From positions 1 through 41,579 of the forward strand of contig JAHFUS010000036.1 in the NCBI GenBank assembly GCA_023264975.1: a DNA stretch of 41,579 nt, given 5' to 3'. Below are positions 7,537 to 34,431 of the stretch, one piece after another. A program made the position numbers and the translations under genes. The stretch comes from Actinomycetes bacterium. GTDB lineage: Bacteria; Actinomycetota; Acidimicrobiia; Acidimicrobiales; GCA-2861595. How positions within the stretch are numbered: position 1 is the stretch's first letter; every line of letters begins with the position of its first letter. The notes beneath the pieces were generated by a model that did no database searches, had not been told where the DNA came from, and saw only the letters and a program-made list of their open reading frames with translations.

Positions 7537-8423
7537 ACCGCTCTCGCCTCGTCGAGGATGGCCCGCAGCGTCTCGTCGAGCGGGATCGCCGGCTCCCAGC
7601 CGGTGGCCGCCCGCAGCCGGGCCGGGTCGCCCCGCAGCTCGGGGACGTCGACCGGCCTGAGGAGCTCGGCGTCCGGCTCCAGCGCCAGGTCGGCCCCGGC
7701 CAGCACGAGAAGTCGCCGCACCAGCTCGCCCACCTCCACCGACGTGCCGGTGCAGACGTTGTACGCCTCACCCGGCTCGCCCCGCTCCATCAGGAGCCGG
7801 TAGGCCCGCACCACGTCACGCACGTCGACGATGTCGCGCCGGGCCGACAGGTTCCCCACCCGCAGGACGCCGGCGCCGGCGCGCTGGGCGTCGACGATAC
7901 GGCGGGCGAAGGCGGGGAGGGCGAAGGTGGGCGCCTGGCCCGGGCCGGCGTGGTTGAAGGGCCGGGCCCGCACCGCCGCCGTCGACCGGCCCAGGTGCGC
8001 CTGCACCGCCACCAGCTCGGCCGCCGCCTTACTGGCTGCGTACGGCGACACGGGCCGCATCGGCTGGTCCTCGCCCACCGGGAGCTGGTCCGGGTCGACG
8101 TCGCCGTAGACCTCGGCCGAGCTGATCACCAGCACCCGGGGCGGCGCCGGGCACGCCCGGGCCGCCTCGAGCACGTTGAGGGTGCCACCGGCGTTCACCC
8201 GCAGGTACTCGCCCGGCTCCTCCCAGGAGCGCTGCACGTGGGCCAGCCCGGCCAGGTGGTAGACGGCGTCGGGGGCGGCGGCCGCCATCGAGCAGGCCAC
8301 GCCTGCGGCATCGGTGACGTCGACACCGTCGCCGGCGACCACCACGACGTCCCCCTCCTTCTCCAGGTGGGCTACAAGCCAGTGTCCGACGAAGCCGGAG
8401 GCGCCGGTGACGAAGGCCCGCAT
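7524..8423 (-). CDS. rmd: GDP-6-deoxy-D-mannose (4-keto) reductase, Rmd-like SDR
   Basis: A 299-residue extended short-chain dehydrogenase. The NAD(P) site is GASGFVGHW (residues about 7-15), the catalytic Ser is in SSAEVYGD and the catalytic pair is YAASK. The stretch RPFNHAGPGQ, followed by VGNLSARRDIVDVRDVVRAY and YNVCTG, is characteristic of Rmd, which reduces GDP-4-keto-6-deoxymannose to GDP-D-rhamnose. The gene start ATG 8423 overlaps the stop of the upstream glycosyltransferase by one base (TGATG). Gmd, which would make its substrate, is not in this window. The C-terminal codons form half of a terminator hairpin. A related 4-keto sugar could be the true substrate. Confidence 0.82.
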   Translation of the reverse strand: MRAFVTGASGFVGHWLVAHLEKEGDVVVVAGDGVDVTDAAGVACSMAAAAPDAVYHLAGLAHVQRSWEEPGEYLRVNAGGTLNVLEAARACPAPPRVLVISSAEVYGDVDPDQLPVGEDQPMRPVSPYAASKAAAELVAVQAHLGRSTAAVRARPFNHAGPGQAPTFALPAFARRIVDAQRAGAGVLRVGNLSARRDIVDVRDVVRAYRLLMERGEPGEAYNVCTGTSVEVGELVRRLLVLAGADLALEPDAELLRPVDVPELRGDPARLRAATGWEPAIPLDETLRAILDEARAVPRK

Positions 8424-9568
8424 CAGCCGGCCACCGACCGGTAGAGCTCGGCGTGGGCCCTGCCACTGGCTTCCCAGGTGTGGCGGGTGGCCACCGCCAG
8501 GCCCCGCTGGCGGCGGGCGTCGAGGCCGGCGTCGCCCCGCACGAGCATGTCGAGGACGCCGGCCAGGCCGTCGGCGTCGCCCGGGCCCACCAGCATGGCC
8601 GACCCTGACGCCATCTCCTCCATGGCCGACCCGGTGGTGGTGACGAGGGGCGCCCCGCACGCCAGGGCCTCCAGGGCGGGCAGGCCGAAGCCCTCCTCGA
8701 GGGAGGGGTAGGCGACGGCCGAGGCCCGGCGCAGGAGGCTGGGGACGCTCTCGTCGGGCACATACCCGGTGCGCACCACCCGGTCGCCGTGGGCGGCGGC
8801 GGCGATGGCCGCCTTGACCTCCTTGGCACCCCAGCCGTCGACGCCGGCCAGCACCAGGGAGAGGTCGGGATGGTTGGGCGCCATGCGGTCGAATGCCTTC
8901 ACGAGGGTGGGCACGTCCTTGCGGGGCTCGATGGTGCCCACGAAGGCCACGAACGGCTCCCGCACGCCCATGGCCTTGAGGGCTGCGATGTCGTCGGCGT
9001 CGCCGGGGTCGGGGGTGAAACGGCTGAGGTCGACGCCGTGGGGGATCACCCGCACCTGGCCGACGGCCGGGCACAGCTCGGCCAGGCGGTCGGCGGTGGC
9101 CCGGCTCACGCACACCACCGCTTCGGCGTGGCGCGCCGCCACCCGGATGGCCCGGCGGAACAGCGCCACCTTCCCCCGCTCGTGCCACTCGGGATGGTCG
9201 AAGAAGGTGAGGTCGTGCACGGTGACCACCGTGGGCAGCTCCGACGACTCCGGCATCGTGTAGTGGGGCGAGTGGTGGGCCCGCACCGGCGGCTGCAAGC
9301 CCCGCAGCAGGCGGGGCAGGCGTGCCTGCTCCCACGCCAGGCGCAGCGGGCGGGGCCCGGGGGCGTCGGCCACCACAACCGCCCCGGGTGACAAGGCCTT
9401 CCACCGGGCGGCGTCGGTGCGGCGCGTCACGAAGGTGAGCTGCACATCGTCCCGGCGCGACAGAGCCGCGGCCAGGTCGATCGTATACCGGCCGGCGCCC
9501 GACGGGTCGGCCGGCACGGCGCTCACGTCGAACGAGACGGCCACGGGCTCGAGGGCGCCGGCGCTCAC
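8423..9568 (-). CDS. Family 4 glycosyltransferase (GT-B), copy 1
   Basis: 381 residues with the GT-B fold of GT4 enzymes. The N-terminal acceptor domain has GAGRYTIDLAAALSRR; the C-terminal nucleotide-sugar domain has FVGTIEPRKDVPTLVKAF, GYVPDESVPSLLRRA and the E-x7-E motif EEGFGLPALEALACG that binds the donor sugar. No membrane segment is seen, so it acts at the cytoplasmic face. It is the third of three GT4 genes in a row and directly precedes the Rmd-like gene with a one-base overlap, so it may transfer a GDP-linked 6-deoxyhexose or mannose. That donor assignment is inference from context only. Confidence 0.88.
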   Translation of the reverse strand: MSAGALEPVAVSFDVSAVPADPSGAGRYTIDLAAALSRRDDVQLTFVTRRTDAARWKALSPGAVVVADAPGPRPLRLAWEQARLPRLLRGLQPPVRAHHSPHYTMPESSELPTVVTVHDLTFFDHPEWHERGKVALFRRAIRVAARHAEAVVCVSRATADRLAELCPAVGQVRVIPHGVDLSRFTPDPGDADDIAALKAMGVREPFVAFVGTIEPRKDVPTLVKAFDRMAPNHPDLSLVLAGVDGWGAKEVKAAIAAAAHGDRVVRTGYVPDESVPSLLRRASAVAYPSLEEGFGLPALEALACGAPLVTTTGSAMEEMASGSAMLVGPGDADGLAGVLDMLVRGDAGLDARRQRGLAVATRHTWEASGRAHAELYRSVAG

Positions 9569-30829: not shown

Positions 30830-31831
30830 TTGTCCGCCCCTGCCCCGCTCGCCGTCGTGGGCGGCCGCCTCGCCACCGGCCTGCTCGACGTCACCTCCGA
30901 CCTGGGCGCGCTCGACGGGCCCGGCTTCTGGGCCGTGATCATCCCCTTCGAGGGTGCACCGACGTGCGCCCGCTTCGAGCACGTCCGCCTGGCCACACCG
31001 TGGCCCGGCCCGGCCTGGCGGGGGCCGCCACGCTCCTCGTGGCGCTCCTCGCTCGGCCAGGACAACTTCTGCGCCGGCGTCGACGAGATCCGCGCCGCCA
31101 TCGCCGAGGGAGACGTCTACCAGGTGAACCTCACCCGCCGGCTGTCCGCCCCCGCCCCTCCTGGCGCCGACGTGGCCGCACTGGGCGCCGCCCTCGCCGC
31201 CGGCAACCCGGCGCCCTACTCAGCCGTTGTGCGGGTCCCGACCGCCGGCGTGCACGTGGCGTCGGCGTCGCCCGAGCGCTTCCTGCGCCGGTCGGGCCGC
31301 AGGGTGGAGTCCCGGCCCATCAAGGGCACCGCCGCATCGGCGGACGGCTTCCTGGCCAAGGACCGGGCCGAGAACGTGATGATCGTCGACCTCGTCCGCA
31401 ACGACCTGGGGCGGGTCTGCGAGTACGGGTCGGTGTCGGTGCCCGGCCTGTGCGAGGTGGAGCCACATCCGGGCCTGTTCCACCTGGTGTCCACCGTGCG
31501 GGGCCGCTTGCGGGCCGATGTGGGGTGGCCCGAGCTGGTGGACGCCACCTTCCCGCCGGGCTCGGTCACCGGCGCGCCGAAGCTGGCCGCCCTCGACGTG
31601 ATCTCCAAGCTCGAGCCCGTCCCCCGCGGCCCGTACTGCGGAGCGGTGGGCTGGGTCGACGGCGACGCCGGCGAGGGCGACCTCAACGTCGCCATCCGCA
31701 CGCTGTGGCTGGGGGCGGGCGAGGTGCACCTCGGCACCGGCGGCGGCATCACCTGGGGCTCCACCCCGGCCGGTGAGTGGGAGGAGACCGAGCTCAAGGC
31801 CCGGCGCCTCCTCTCGGTGGTGTCGTCGTGA
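30830..31831 (+). CDS. pabB: Chorismate-binding enzyme, aminodeoxychorismate synthase component I (PabB-like)
   Basis: 333 residues. The chorismate-utilising core is clear: EIRAAIAEGDVYQVNLTRR, SPERFLRRSGRRVESRPIKGTA, LVRNDLGRVCEYGSV, VEPHPGLFHLVSTVRGRL, FPPGSVTGAPKLAALDVI and GPYCGAVGWVDGDAGEGDLNVAIRT. PIKGT and GAPK are active-site motifs of the PabB/TrpE family. The N-terminal domain is short. Start placed at TTG 30830 after TAGGCT; GTG 30857 is an alternative. Its end overlaps pabC (GTGA, 31828-31831), so with PabC it makes p-aminobenzoate for folate. The glutaminase subunit PabA is not in the window. Confidence 0.88.
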   Translation: MSAPAPLAVVGGRLATGLLDVTSDLGALDGPGFWAVIIPFEGAPTCARFEHVRLATPWPGPAWRGPPRSSWRSSLGQDNFCAGVDEIRAAIAEGDVYQVNLTRRLSAPAPPGADVAALGAALAAGNPAPYSAVVRVPTAGVHVASASPERFLRRSGRRVESRPIKGTAASADGFLAKDRAENVMIVDLVRNDLGRVCEYGSVSVPGLCEVEPHPGLFHLVSTVRGRLRADVGWPELVDATFPPGSVTGAPKLAALDVISKLEPVPRGPYCGAVGWVDGDAGEGDLNVAIRTLWLGAGEVHLGTGGGITWGSTPAGEWEETELKARRLLSVVSS

Positions 31832-32661
31832 GCGGCGCCAAGGTGTGGCTCAACGGGTCGCTGGTCGACCGGGCGAACGCCGTGGTGTCGGTGTTCGACC
31901 ACGGCCTCACCGTGGGCGACGGCATCTTCGAGACACTCAGGACGTACGGCGGCCGCCCATTCGCCGTCCGCCGCCATCTGGCCCGCCTCACCTCGTCCGC
32001 CGCCCGCATGGGCCTCTCGGGCCTCCCGCCGGCAGACGCCCTGCGCGCCGCCCTCGACGAGCTGGTCGCCGCCAACGGCCTCCGCGACGCCGTCCTCCGG
32101 GTCACGGTGACGTCGGGCCCCGGCCCGGCCGGGTCCGCTCGCCCCCCTGGACCCCCCACCGTGGTGATCTCGTCCAGCCCCCTACCGGCCTGGCCGGACG
32201 CCGTCGACGTCGCCGTGGTGCCCTGGCCGCGCAACGACCGCGGTGCCCTGTCCGGCCACAAGACCACTTCCTACGGCGAGAACGTGGTTGCGCTGGCCTA
32301 CGCCCACGAGCGGGGCGCGGCCGAAGCCCTGTTCGCCAACCTGACCGGTGACCTCTGCGAGGGCACCGGCTCCAACATCGCCGTCGTCGCCGGCGGCCGC
32401 CTCGTCACCCCACCCCTGCACGCCGGCTGCCTCGCCGGCGTGACCCGCGCCCTCGTCATCGAGGCGTGCGGCGTGATCGAGGACGACATTCCCCTCGCCG
32501 CCCTCGCCCGCGCCCCCGAGGCCTTCCTCACCTCCACCACCCGGGAGGTCCAGCCCATCCGCGCTGTCGACGGCCACCTCCTCCCGTCCGCCGCCGGACC
32601 TCTCACCGCCACCGCCGCCGCCACCCTGCGGACCATCATCGCCACCACCCCCGACCCCTGA
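31828..32661 (+). CDS. pabC: 4-amino-4-deoxychorismate lyase (PabC-like, class IV aminotransferase fold)
   Basis: 277 residues. Class IV PLP enzyme: VFDHGLTVGDGIFETLRTYGGRPFAVRRHLARL at the N terminus, the PLP lysine in SGHKTTSYGENV, the conserved Glu-Gly-Thr-Gly-Ser-Asn (EGTGSNIAVV) and FLTSTTREVQPIRAVDG near the end. Branched-chain or D-amino-acid aminotransferases share this fold, but a 4-nt overlap with pabB strongly supports the lyase that releases pyruvate to give p-aminobenzoate. Start GTG 31828 overlaps the pabB stop. The gene ends one base before the left palindrome of the AbiEi/DUF559 unit. Confidence 0.88.
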   Translation: MSGAKVWLNGSLVDRANAVVSVFDHGLTVGDGIFETLRTYGGRPFAVRRHLARLTSSAARMGLSGLPPADALRAALDELVAANGLRDAVLRVTVTSGPGPAGSARPPGPPTVVISSSPLPAWPDAVDVAVVPWPRNDRGALSGHKTTSYGENVVALAYAHERGAAEALFANLTGDLCEGTGSNIAVVAGGRLVTPPLHAGCLAGVTRALVIEACGVIEDDIPLAALARAPEAFLTSTTREVQPIRAVDGHLLPSAAGPLTATAAATLRTIIATTPDP

Positions 32662-32662
32662 C

Positions 32663-32712
32663 GTTCCAAAGCGATCTGTGTCCGCATGCCGGATCCAAAT
32701 CGCTTTTGGAAC
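32663..32712. repeat. Left palindrome of the AbiEi/DUF559 unit
   Basis: A 50-bp imperfect hairpin from GTTCC to GGAAC. The outer arm AAAGCGATCTGTGTCCG (32668-32684) recurs, inverted and with one mismatch, at 33691-33707. The inner arm, read inverted, is GTTCCAAAAGCGATTTGGA. It begins 2 nt after the pabC stop. Confidence 0.8.
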
Positions 32713-32724
32713 CCAGGCTCCGGC

Positions 32725-33645
32725 TCACGCGGATCTCGTTGCAGCAGAAATCCCGGCCCGCACCGTCAAGGCGACCTGCGCCGGTCGGCGGACGACGTCG
32801 TGCCAGGTGAACCGGATGACGGTCCAGCCCAGGGTCACGAGTTCGTTCTGGCGCACGAGGTCGGACTGGAACGCCCTCGGCGATGCATGAGACGCGCGGC
32901 CGTCGACCTCCATGGCGACGAGAATGGCGGGGTAGGCGAAGTCGATCTTGGCGACGAACTTCCCGGCGCGGCGGACGACATGCTGGAACACCGCCGGCGG
33001 CAGCCCATGTGACCGCAGCAGGCGGGCCATCCGGGGTTCCAACAATCCATCGGGCCGGTCCGCTCCGAGCGCCCGCTCCCTGAGTACGTGGCGAAGTTGT
33101 GCCACACCCGGGCGACCCCGTCGTGCGAGGCGATCGAGCGTGTGCTCCACGCCGACCACCGTGACAAGCCGGCGCTCGAGGGCCCGGTCGAGCGCATCCT
33201 CCAACTCTTCCCCGCCGGTCACCGTCCCCAGGTCGACGAGTGCCCGCATCGGATCGGTGGCCGGAATGCCGCGACGCTGCACGATCGAAGAGTGGGCCAG
33301 ATCGGCGAACTGATGGACCACGACTCCGGGCAGGTCCCGCCGGCGCTGGACCGGAACGGTCACATCCAAAGCGTCGGTGTCGAGGATGCCCCAGAGCCTG
33401 CCCGCCGAACGGTGCGATGCAGCCGCACCCGGTCCTGCCGCCAAGACGGCGGCCAGCAGGCGCTGCTCCCAGGTCTCGGGTGCACCTGCGACCCGGTAGA
33501 CGCCACGCTGCACCGTCTGAAGCCGCCCTGCGACCAGCCATCTCTGGATCATGCTCCGCGACGCACCGCCGGCCAGCAGCCAGGCTCGAGAAATCACGCC
33601 GTGTTGCAGCGCCGCCTTCCGGGTCAAGTCGGCAAACGAGATCAC
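32725..33645 (-). CDS. AbiEi-type winged-helix + DUF559 nuclease-like protein
   Basis: 306 residues. Residues about 1-55 look like the winged-helix domain of AbiEi antitoxins (QHGVISRAWLLAGGASRSMIQRWLVAGRLQTVQRGVYRVAG). A middle AbiEi-like region follows (AASHRSAGRLWGILD, IVQRRGIPATDPMRALVDL). The C terminus (about 225-300) is DUF559, a Vsr/PD-(D/E)XK-like fold: VAKIDFAYPAILVAMEVDG with Asp and Glu-Val-Asp in metal-site positions, then RQNELVTLGWTVIRFTWHDV. It would bind DNA and possibly cut it. No AbiEii toxin gene is adjacent, so it is an orphan. Start GTG 33645 has GGGAGG close upstream. Related hairpins flank the gene on both sides. Nuclease activity is unproven. Confidence 0.82.
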   Translation of the reverse strand: MISFADLTRKAALQHGVISRAWLLAGGASRSMIQRWLVAGRLQTVQRGVYRVAGAPETWEQRLLAAVLAAGPGAAASHRSAGRLWGILDTDALDVTVPVQRRRDLPGVVVHQFADLAHSSIVQRRGIPATDPMRALVDLGTVTGGEELEDALDRALERRLVTVVGVEHTLDRLARRGRPGVAQLRHVLRERALGADRPDGLLEPRMARLLRSHGLPPAVFQHVVRRAGKFVAKIDFAYPAILVAMEVDGRASHASPRAFQSDLVRQNELVTLGWTVIRFTWHDVVRRPAQVALTVRAGISAATRSA

Positions 33646-33668
33646 GGTCCTCCCTTTGGATCTCAGCC

Positions 33669-33707
33669 AAAGCGAACTGTGCCCGGAAGCCGGGCACAGA
33701 TCGCTTT
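33669..33707. repeat. Right palindrome of the AbiEi/DUF559 unit
   Basis: A 39-bp near-perfect hairpin: 18-nt arms pair at 17 of 18 positions around a 3-nt loop (AAG). The outer arm AAAGCGATCTGTGCCCG (minus strand, 33707-33691) matches the left element's outer arm in 16 of 17 bases. Confidence 0.85.
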
Positions 33708-33735
33708 CGAATGCAGAACACAGGGGAAGGGAGCT

Positions 33736-34431
33736 TCAGTATGACCCTGGGGTGGGACGGAGATGGAGGACGTCGCCGGCGGTGACGGTGCGGAGGCACG
33801 TGCCGATGTCGACGAGGAGGTGGCCGTCGTCGGTGATGTCGGCGGCGGTGCCGGTGAAGGACTCGTCGGCGAGATCGACCCGAACGGTGCGGCCGAGGGT
33901 GGCGCAGGCCCGGCGGTGCTCGGAGGCGACGGCGGGCCAGTCGCCGTAGCGGTCGTCCAACGACGTCAGGACGGCGTCGAGGAGCGCTTCGATGTCGACC
34001 GGGCGGCCGGCAGCGGCTTCGGCGCACACTGCGCCGGCCGTCCACGGCCCGGCGGCCACCACGTTGAGGCCCAGGCCGACCACCACGGCGCCGGCTGCGA
34101 GTTCGGCCAGGACGCCGGCCAGCTTGGCGTCGCCGACCACCAGATCGTTGGGCCACTTGAGGTCGGGGGTGAACCCGCCGACGGCGGCGCACCCAGCGCG
34201 GGCGGCTAGGGCCACGGCGGCTACGGCAAGGTGAGACCGGGGCACCGGCAGCGAGTCGCCCGGGCGGAGCAGCACCGACAGCAACAGCGACGACCCGGCG
34301 GCCGCTTCCCAGGCCCGCCCGAGGCGGCCACGGCCGGCCGTCTGGTGGCCCGCCACGACGACCACGCCCCCGGGAGCGCCGTCCCGGGCGAGGTCCAGCG
34401 CCACCCGGTTGGTCGAGTCCACCGCCGCCAA
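33736..34431 (-). CDS. birA: Biotin--[acetyl-CoA-carboxylase] ligase (class I BirA)
   Basis: 231 residues, catalytic and C-terminal domains only, no helix-turn-helix repressor domain. Seen are the substrate motif VDSTNRVA, the biotin/ATP loop GRGRLGRAW, KWPNDLVVGDAKLAGVLAE and VVGLGLNVV, then the small C-terminal domain. It makes biotinyl-AMP and attaches biotin to carrier lysines. The divergent neighbour is a carboxylase with an AMKM biotin site, its obvious substrate. The only in-frame start after an upstream stop is TTG 34431; a TATGGT box lies 27 nt upstream. The start is therefore unusual and some N-terminal residues may be missing. Confidence 0.9.
   Translation of the reverse strand: MAAVDSTNRVALDLARDGAPGGVVVVAGHQTAGRGRLGRAWEAAAGSSLLLSVLLRPGDSLPVPRSHLAVAAVALAARAGCAAVGGFTPDLKWPNDLVVGDAKLAGVLAELAAGAVVVGLGLNVVAAGPWTAGAVCAEAAAGRPVDIEALLDAVLTSLDDRYGDWPAVASEHRRACATLGRTVRVDLADESFTGTAADITDDGHLLVDIGTCLRTVTAGDVLHLRPTPGSY

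Follow-up and report, generated by a model that had tools for sequence, protein, structure and literature searches.

The dispersed palindromes of bacteria have one well-known dedicated mover, the HUH transposases of the RAYT type, and some REP classes have been assigned none (PMC3733652). We describe here a gene from an actinomycete genome (G000) that encodes an AbiEi-antitoxin-like half fused to a Vsr-fold nuclease half and is boxed by two palindromes; it lies in a window of 41,579 nucleotides, which is the whole stretch of DNA analysed. The arrangement resembles the REPtron (REP plus RAYT, or TnpA-REP) in having one chromosomal gene between short palindromes that are also scattered over intergenic sites, in a palindrome that is cognate to the enzyme, and in the tandem palindromes of some loci. 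It differs in the enzyme, which in RAYTs is of the HUH/Y1 type, in palindromes that vary from gene to gene and perhaps in the ends of these, since by eye the boxes have no obvious GTAG or CGTC tag in common. IS200/IS605 elements are small units with hairpins at both ends, as is the unit described here, but the latter has no TnpA Y1 transposase and its hairpins vary between copies in one genome.

Each half of the protein has relatives of its own. AbiEi proteins of type IV toxin-antitoxin systems have the same two-domain fold (residues 1-192 here), bind inverted repeats and autoregulate through paired 23-bp copies of them (PMC7319586); in our unit, in contrast, the AbiEi half has no AbiEii toxin partner and is fused to a nuclease. 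By sequence the nuclease half belongs to the MTES_1575 REase / DUF559 group (PF18741, PF04480), MTES_1575 having been named as a novel Vsr-REase (PMC3710099). It shares its catalytic fold and conserved acidic and His residues with the EDxHD (Vsr-like) homing endonuclease I-Bth0305I, which forms a dimer on a target site of nearly 60 bp (PMC3943268), about the length of the 57-bp palindromes found here. Unlike EDxHD homing genes, ours is free-standing between two palindromes, in no intron or intein, and has another DNA-binding half; its presumed target is intact on both sides, with single palindromes at an orthologous site and two intact ones at a filled site. A search of the open-access literature found nothing linking DUF559, MTES_1575 or AbiEi fusions to palindromes or mobility, and an earlier description elsewhere is possible. 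We judge the system to be a new kind, in which dispersed palindromes go with an unrelated dedicated nuclease that putatively moves them, and the gene of the window is one copy of a widespread, apparently undescribed system of genes boxed by their cognate palindromes.

The features of the locus are collected in Table 1. No AbiEii (DUF1814) toxin partner adjoins the gene, whose only neighbours are the pabC-like and birA-like genes, and the boxes hold no other gene, in agreement with the original prediction. That prediction also placed the unit 2 nt from pabC; the fit is indeed tight, but the gap between the pabC stop and the left hairpin is 1-6 nt, depending on how much of the stem is counted.

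Table 1. Positions of the unit, its parts and the flanking host genes in the window.
Feature	Coordinates	Strand	Basis or remark
pabC-like aminotransferase, flanking host gene outside the unit	31777..32661	+	Relatives that have the unit and relatives that lack it share the order pabC-birA
Left palindrome, decayed	32663..32712 (approximate)	.	Downstream of the gene, directly after the pabC stop; DNA fold z -4.0
AbiEi-Vsr fusion gene	32725..33645	-	ORF list; 306 aa, GTG start
Vsr-fold nuclease half (residues 197-306)	32728..33057	-	Structure and profile matches, conserved residues
AbiEi-antitoxin-like half (residues 1-192: winged helix and AbiEi C-terminal domain)	33070..33645	-	AF2, 6y8q match, covariation
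Right palindrome, near perfect	33668..33708	.	23 nt upstream of the start codon; DNA fold z -8.7
birA-like flanking host gene, outside the unit	33736..34431	-	ORF list and comparison of relatives

The protein matches the Pfam families MTES_1575 (6.8e-9), DUF559 (6.4e-6) and AbiEi_4 (2.9e-5). An AlphaFold2 model built with 75 homologs reached a pLDDT of 94.9, and its comparison with known structures bears out the prediction of an AbiEi domain joined to a DUF559 domain of Vsr-like fold. The first half is a complete AbiEi antitoxin fold, aligning over 180 residues with Streptococcus agalactiae AbiEi (6y8q, Z 13.0; Foldseek E 5.6e-6) and also with Mycobacterium tuberculosis Rv2827c (Z 9.3); the PADLOC AbiEi model matches it over residues 6-179 (5.2e-30). 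The second half is a Vsr-type nuclease fold, with 96 residues aligned to I-Bth0305I (3r3p, Z 13.0) and a Z of 10.7 to DNA-bound Vsr (1cw0), the same two entries being matched by sequence profile (1.9e-5 and 2.5e-4, respectively). Mitoribosomal entries in the fold search were set aside as long chains with a Vsr-like stretch. Residues E203, D235, E246-x-D248, H253, D262 and R265 are each at least 90% conserved among the 75 homologs, of which 68 match the MTES_1575 profile and 59 the DUF559 profile (E <= 1e-3); the window protein itself scores 26.5 bits with DUF559, above the cut-off of 20.6, and 36.1 with MTES_1575, slightly short of the cut-off of 38.2. Since dN/dS between pairs of homologs is about 0.12-0.40, the gene is maintained by purifying selection. 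We infer that the Vsr half would cut DNA and that the nuclease would move the unit.

The left hairpin (GTTCCAAAGCGATCTGTGTCCGcatgCCGGATCCAAATCGCTTTTGGAAC) is a decayed version that retains the outer arm, and the right one (AAAGCGAACTGTGCCCGGaagCCGGGCACAGATCGCTTT) has arms of 18 bp with one mismatch. Both fold as DNA much better than their shuffled versions (0 of 200 shuffles as good), which, together with a core motif occurring far above chance, confirms that the gene is boxed by related palindromes. The 13-mer core, with up to 2 mismatches, is found at three sites in the window against 0.22 expected; two of the three are the arms of the right hairpin. The two hairpins do share the outer arm, as had been noticed from the letters; the inverted orientation noticed with it is uninformative, the right hairpin being palindromic and the best ungapped alignment of the two being in direct orientation. 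Palindromes were counted by pattern and BLAST searches, and the scan of the genome contigs used a 5-row alignment. Searched against the complete genome with 2 mismatches allowed, the 17-mer gives six matches and the reversed-pattern control none: three are at the window locus, two are solo hairpins of the same type (L003 and L006), and the sixth (L005) lacks such a hairpin. Rfam gave no match. The region scanned contains no promoter-like signal and one terminator-like hairpin, in the right box; we rejected the reading of the palindromes as terminators because this one match leaves gene-specific boxes unexplained.

About 60% of the Actinomycetota homologs are boxed by a palindrome of about 45-60 bp, against 1-2% in controls, and about 40% have no matching box. 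The palindrome is identical in kind on both sides of one gene and different from gene to gene. A repeat common to the two 250-nt flanks, with a score of at least 38, was found in 63% of 54 family and class loci (1.7% for mispaired flanks, 1.9% for outer flanks) and in 57% of 77 named loci, mostly from Actinomycetota (1.5% in either control). Within genomes, two flanks match in 42% of cases if they belong to one gene and in 1% if they are taken from different copies; the palindrome therefore belongs to the gene and not to the genome. Our source genome has five homologs, and three of the four outside the window are also boxed, with a repeat of its own in every case. At many unrelated loci, homologous genes lie between palindromes cognate to them, as the original prediction had suggested looking for. 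The boxes are in mixed orientation (42 direct, 30 inverted); one box precedes the start by a median of 50 nt, and its partner is at the stop codon.

These positions would suit operators and/or bidirectional terminators of an ordinary chromosomal gene, with an AbiEi half that regulates, no self-driven movement, and boxes that match by local duplication or conversion. AbiEi autoregulation through paired 23-bp inverted repeats (PMC7319586), the terminator-like hairpin of the right box and the stay of the gene at one locus in relatives point the same way. We nevertheless consider this explanation unlikely: it accounts neither for the dispersed solo palindromes far from the gene, nor for the shared DNA limited to the unit at unrelated loci, nor for the alternation of unit and single palindrome at one site (all described below), nor for the conserved nuclease site.

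The type of palindrome goes with the AbiEi half. Among pairs of homologs whose nuclease halves are at least 65% identical, the palindrome is shared in 3% of cases when the AbiEi halves are 40-50% identical, in 56% at 60-70% and in 100% above 70%. Several species pairs of Geodermatophilaceae have, at purC-purS, host flanks and a nuclease half that are about 85-90% identical, and the AbiEi half and both palindromes have been replaced wholesale (L130, L138, L141 and L145; gene at about 7800-8720 in each). Judging from such comparisons, specificity, in the sense of palindrome type, is carried with the AbiEi half. The swap recalls specificity-domain swapping in restriction systems.

On a smaller scale, the locus of the window itself shows the same. 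Between pabC and birA the gene is present in G000, G001 and G002 (in the last, decayed), with a different palindrome in each, on both sides, and the junction is empty in G003 and G005, so that the empty site proposed as a check does exist in relatives. The ortholog of the window gene, 60% identical, occupies this same locus. The window copy seems to have been inherited vertically within its family, and it is the relatives, not this copy, that support movement.

Such support comes from the comparison of a second site (site 2; L102, L104 and L124) with purC-purS (L122, L125, L130, L136 and L139). The DNA shared by these loci is the palindrome-gene-palindrome unit: the matches lie within it or end within about 6 nt of it, and the flanks are unrelated, save for a few short extra matches in some pairs. 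In one example, 7740-8800 of L102 corresponds to 7738-8797 of L136, with palindromes at 7739-7795 and 8738-8794. Across species, site 2 contains the whole unit in 4, exactly one type-A palindrome (the palindrome of L125, from Blastococcus aggregatus) in 5, a palindrome of another family (GGCATAGGAGGCTCTACC...) in 6 and neither in 8. The carriers of the unit at site 2 do not form a clade in a flanking-gene tree that has weak support at its deeper nodes. A further site (site 1) is occupied in G129 by a full type-C unit and in G119 by a unit with an internal deletion, is vacant in G106, and otherwise has solo palindromes, of which there are about eight types; purC-purS is empty and palindrome-free in G132. 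At the level of sequence, units and single palindromes are shown to replace each other at orthologous sites. No target-site duplication, fixed insertion sequence or exact insertion point could be defined by comparing congeners, because even the coding flanks of these diverge by some 10% or more and their intergenic DNA cannot be aligned.

The deleted unit of G119 (L272) consists of two type-C palindromes around a gene remnant with a large internal deletion, with 422 nt between the flanks, and is perhaps an intermediate towards a solo palindrome. The other palindrome family of site 2, GGCATAGGAGGCTCTACCTACGTCC...GGACGTAGGTAGAGCCTCCTATGCC, which is dispersed as well, is that of L305, L312, L313, L314, L315 and L317 (G121, G131, G124, G122, G134 and G132, respectively).

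A further possibility is that the system serves the host, its nuclease cutting incoming or misfolded DNA (extruded palindromes, foreign elements) and the boxes and scattered palindromes being marks, decoys or regulatory sites. AbiEi models are present in defence libraries, and the gene, which purifying selection maintains, is chromosomal and in many cases stays at a single locus, all of which would agree with such a role. The coexistence in one genome of several divergent copies that have separate palindromes, the decayed copies, the patchy presence at orthologous sites and a unit without a partner gene make it, in our view, quite improbable.

Solo palindromes were surveyed in 23 genomes of the Blastococcus group. 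The type-A palindrome recurs there as a discrete 57-bp repeat, in up to roughly 18 places per genome. Ten genomes with a gene whose AbiEi half is at least 60% identical (degraded in G124) have 4-33 type-A arms; seven others have zero, and the reversed-pattern control is zero everywhere. Genomes with the cognate gene have more solo palindromes (p = 6e-4 by a Mann-Whitney test that makes no correction for phylogeny). The exceptions are G130, G122 and G123, with 7-9 type-A arms and no cognate gene at the loci read. Across the group, then, solo palindromes track the cognate gene rather than being spread through genomes with no link to it. In sixty-four distinct type-A copies the core CGAACTCGTGGCCATC is constant and the outer stem variable, and six outer-stem positions change with compensation, being paired in 73-94% against 42-53% expected. 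Such compensation would fit a hairpin or cruciform that is required, and it could also result from mutational correction of quasi-palindromes. Solo palindromes may have arisen by movement as such, or they may be leftovers after deletion of the gene between its boxes. In G122 (C1:144083-145733, the first part of which is L239) two perfect type-A palindromes lie 1.6 kb apart; a second cognate unit was suspected there, and the part read, to about 145602, contains no AbiEi/Vsr gene.

Palindromes could also be mobilised by some other enzyme, with the AbiEi/Vsr gene as cargo, regulator or restrainer. It is the spread of the palindromes that is seen, their tie to the nuclease being presumed, and some genomes have solos with no cognate gene found. 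Yet the RAYT-type HUH/Y1 transposase (Y1_Tnp, PF01797) is in none of 10 genomes, G000 included, by a search that was positive in 5 of 14 named control genomes, the palindrome type tracks the protein's own AbiEi half and the number of palindromes tracks the presence of the gene. We hold the involvement of another enzyme to be very doubtful.

We therefore favour, as the probable explanation, that palindrome, AbiEi/Vsr gene and palindrome form a selfish mobile element, comparable to a REPtron or a free-standing homing gene and run by an unrelated enzyme. This is the mobile or selfish unit, similar to REP/RAYT pairs with another enzyme class, that had been predicted, and the data support it, with the driving of its movement by the nuclease as the conjectural part. 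To the fuller proposal we give even chances: a new class of selfish element in which a nuclease of homing-endonuclease fold, aimed by its AbiEi half at its own palindrome of about 57 bp, propagates the palindrome by itself as well as the unit, and changes its specificity when the AbiEi half and both palindromes are exchanged together. By analogy with AbiEi on its paired repeats, and with the I-Bth0305I dimer on its long target, the AbiEi half would bind the palindrome of about 45-60 bp as a dimer, one half-site per monomer, and by this binding would also repress its own gene. The Vsr half would then nick or cut at this sequence, which may be extruded as a cruciform or hairpin, and host repair or recombination would place a copy of either the bare palindrome or the entire unit at a different intergenic site, preferably one that already has a matching palindrome. 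Recombination between the two boxes could remove the gene, so that one palindrome remains by itself, much as a solo LTR does.

Several observations count against a mobile element, namely the unboxed genes (about 40%), the vertical-looking window copy, the palindromes of G122, G130 and G123 for which no cognate gene was found, and a search of plasmid and phage records in which no copy of the gene was found. A further point is that a classical homing gene disrupts its target by inserting there; the filled sites here keep both palindromes intact. If a second, unrelated enzyme is indeed tied to palindromes, the dispersed-palindrome lifestyle arose more than once. The common annotation 'DUF559/AbiEi antitoxin' in Actinomycetota would likewise gain a function, and the boxed genes would make a large natural set of matched DNA-binding halves and targets of about 50 bp from which rules of specificity could be derived.

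Some boxes have additional features. Two or three palindromes stand in tandem on a side of the gene, in a BIME-like manner, at L017, L063, L065, L072, L082 and L088; at L017, L063 and L065 this is so on each side. Homologs L090 and L095, one of them boxed, come from two MAGs labelled Myxococcaceae and represent either transfer across phyla or mis-binned actinobacterial contigs. Finally, a conserved CTGTGGAC is found between the left palindrome and the start codon at L102, L104, L125 and L130; the motif is similar to a portion of a DnaA box, and its role may be that of a promoter or of a replication-linked signal.
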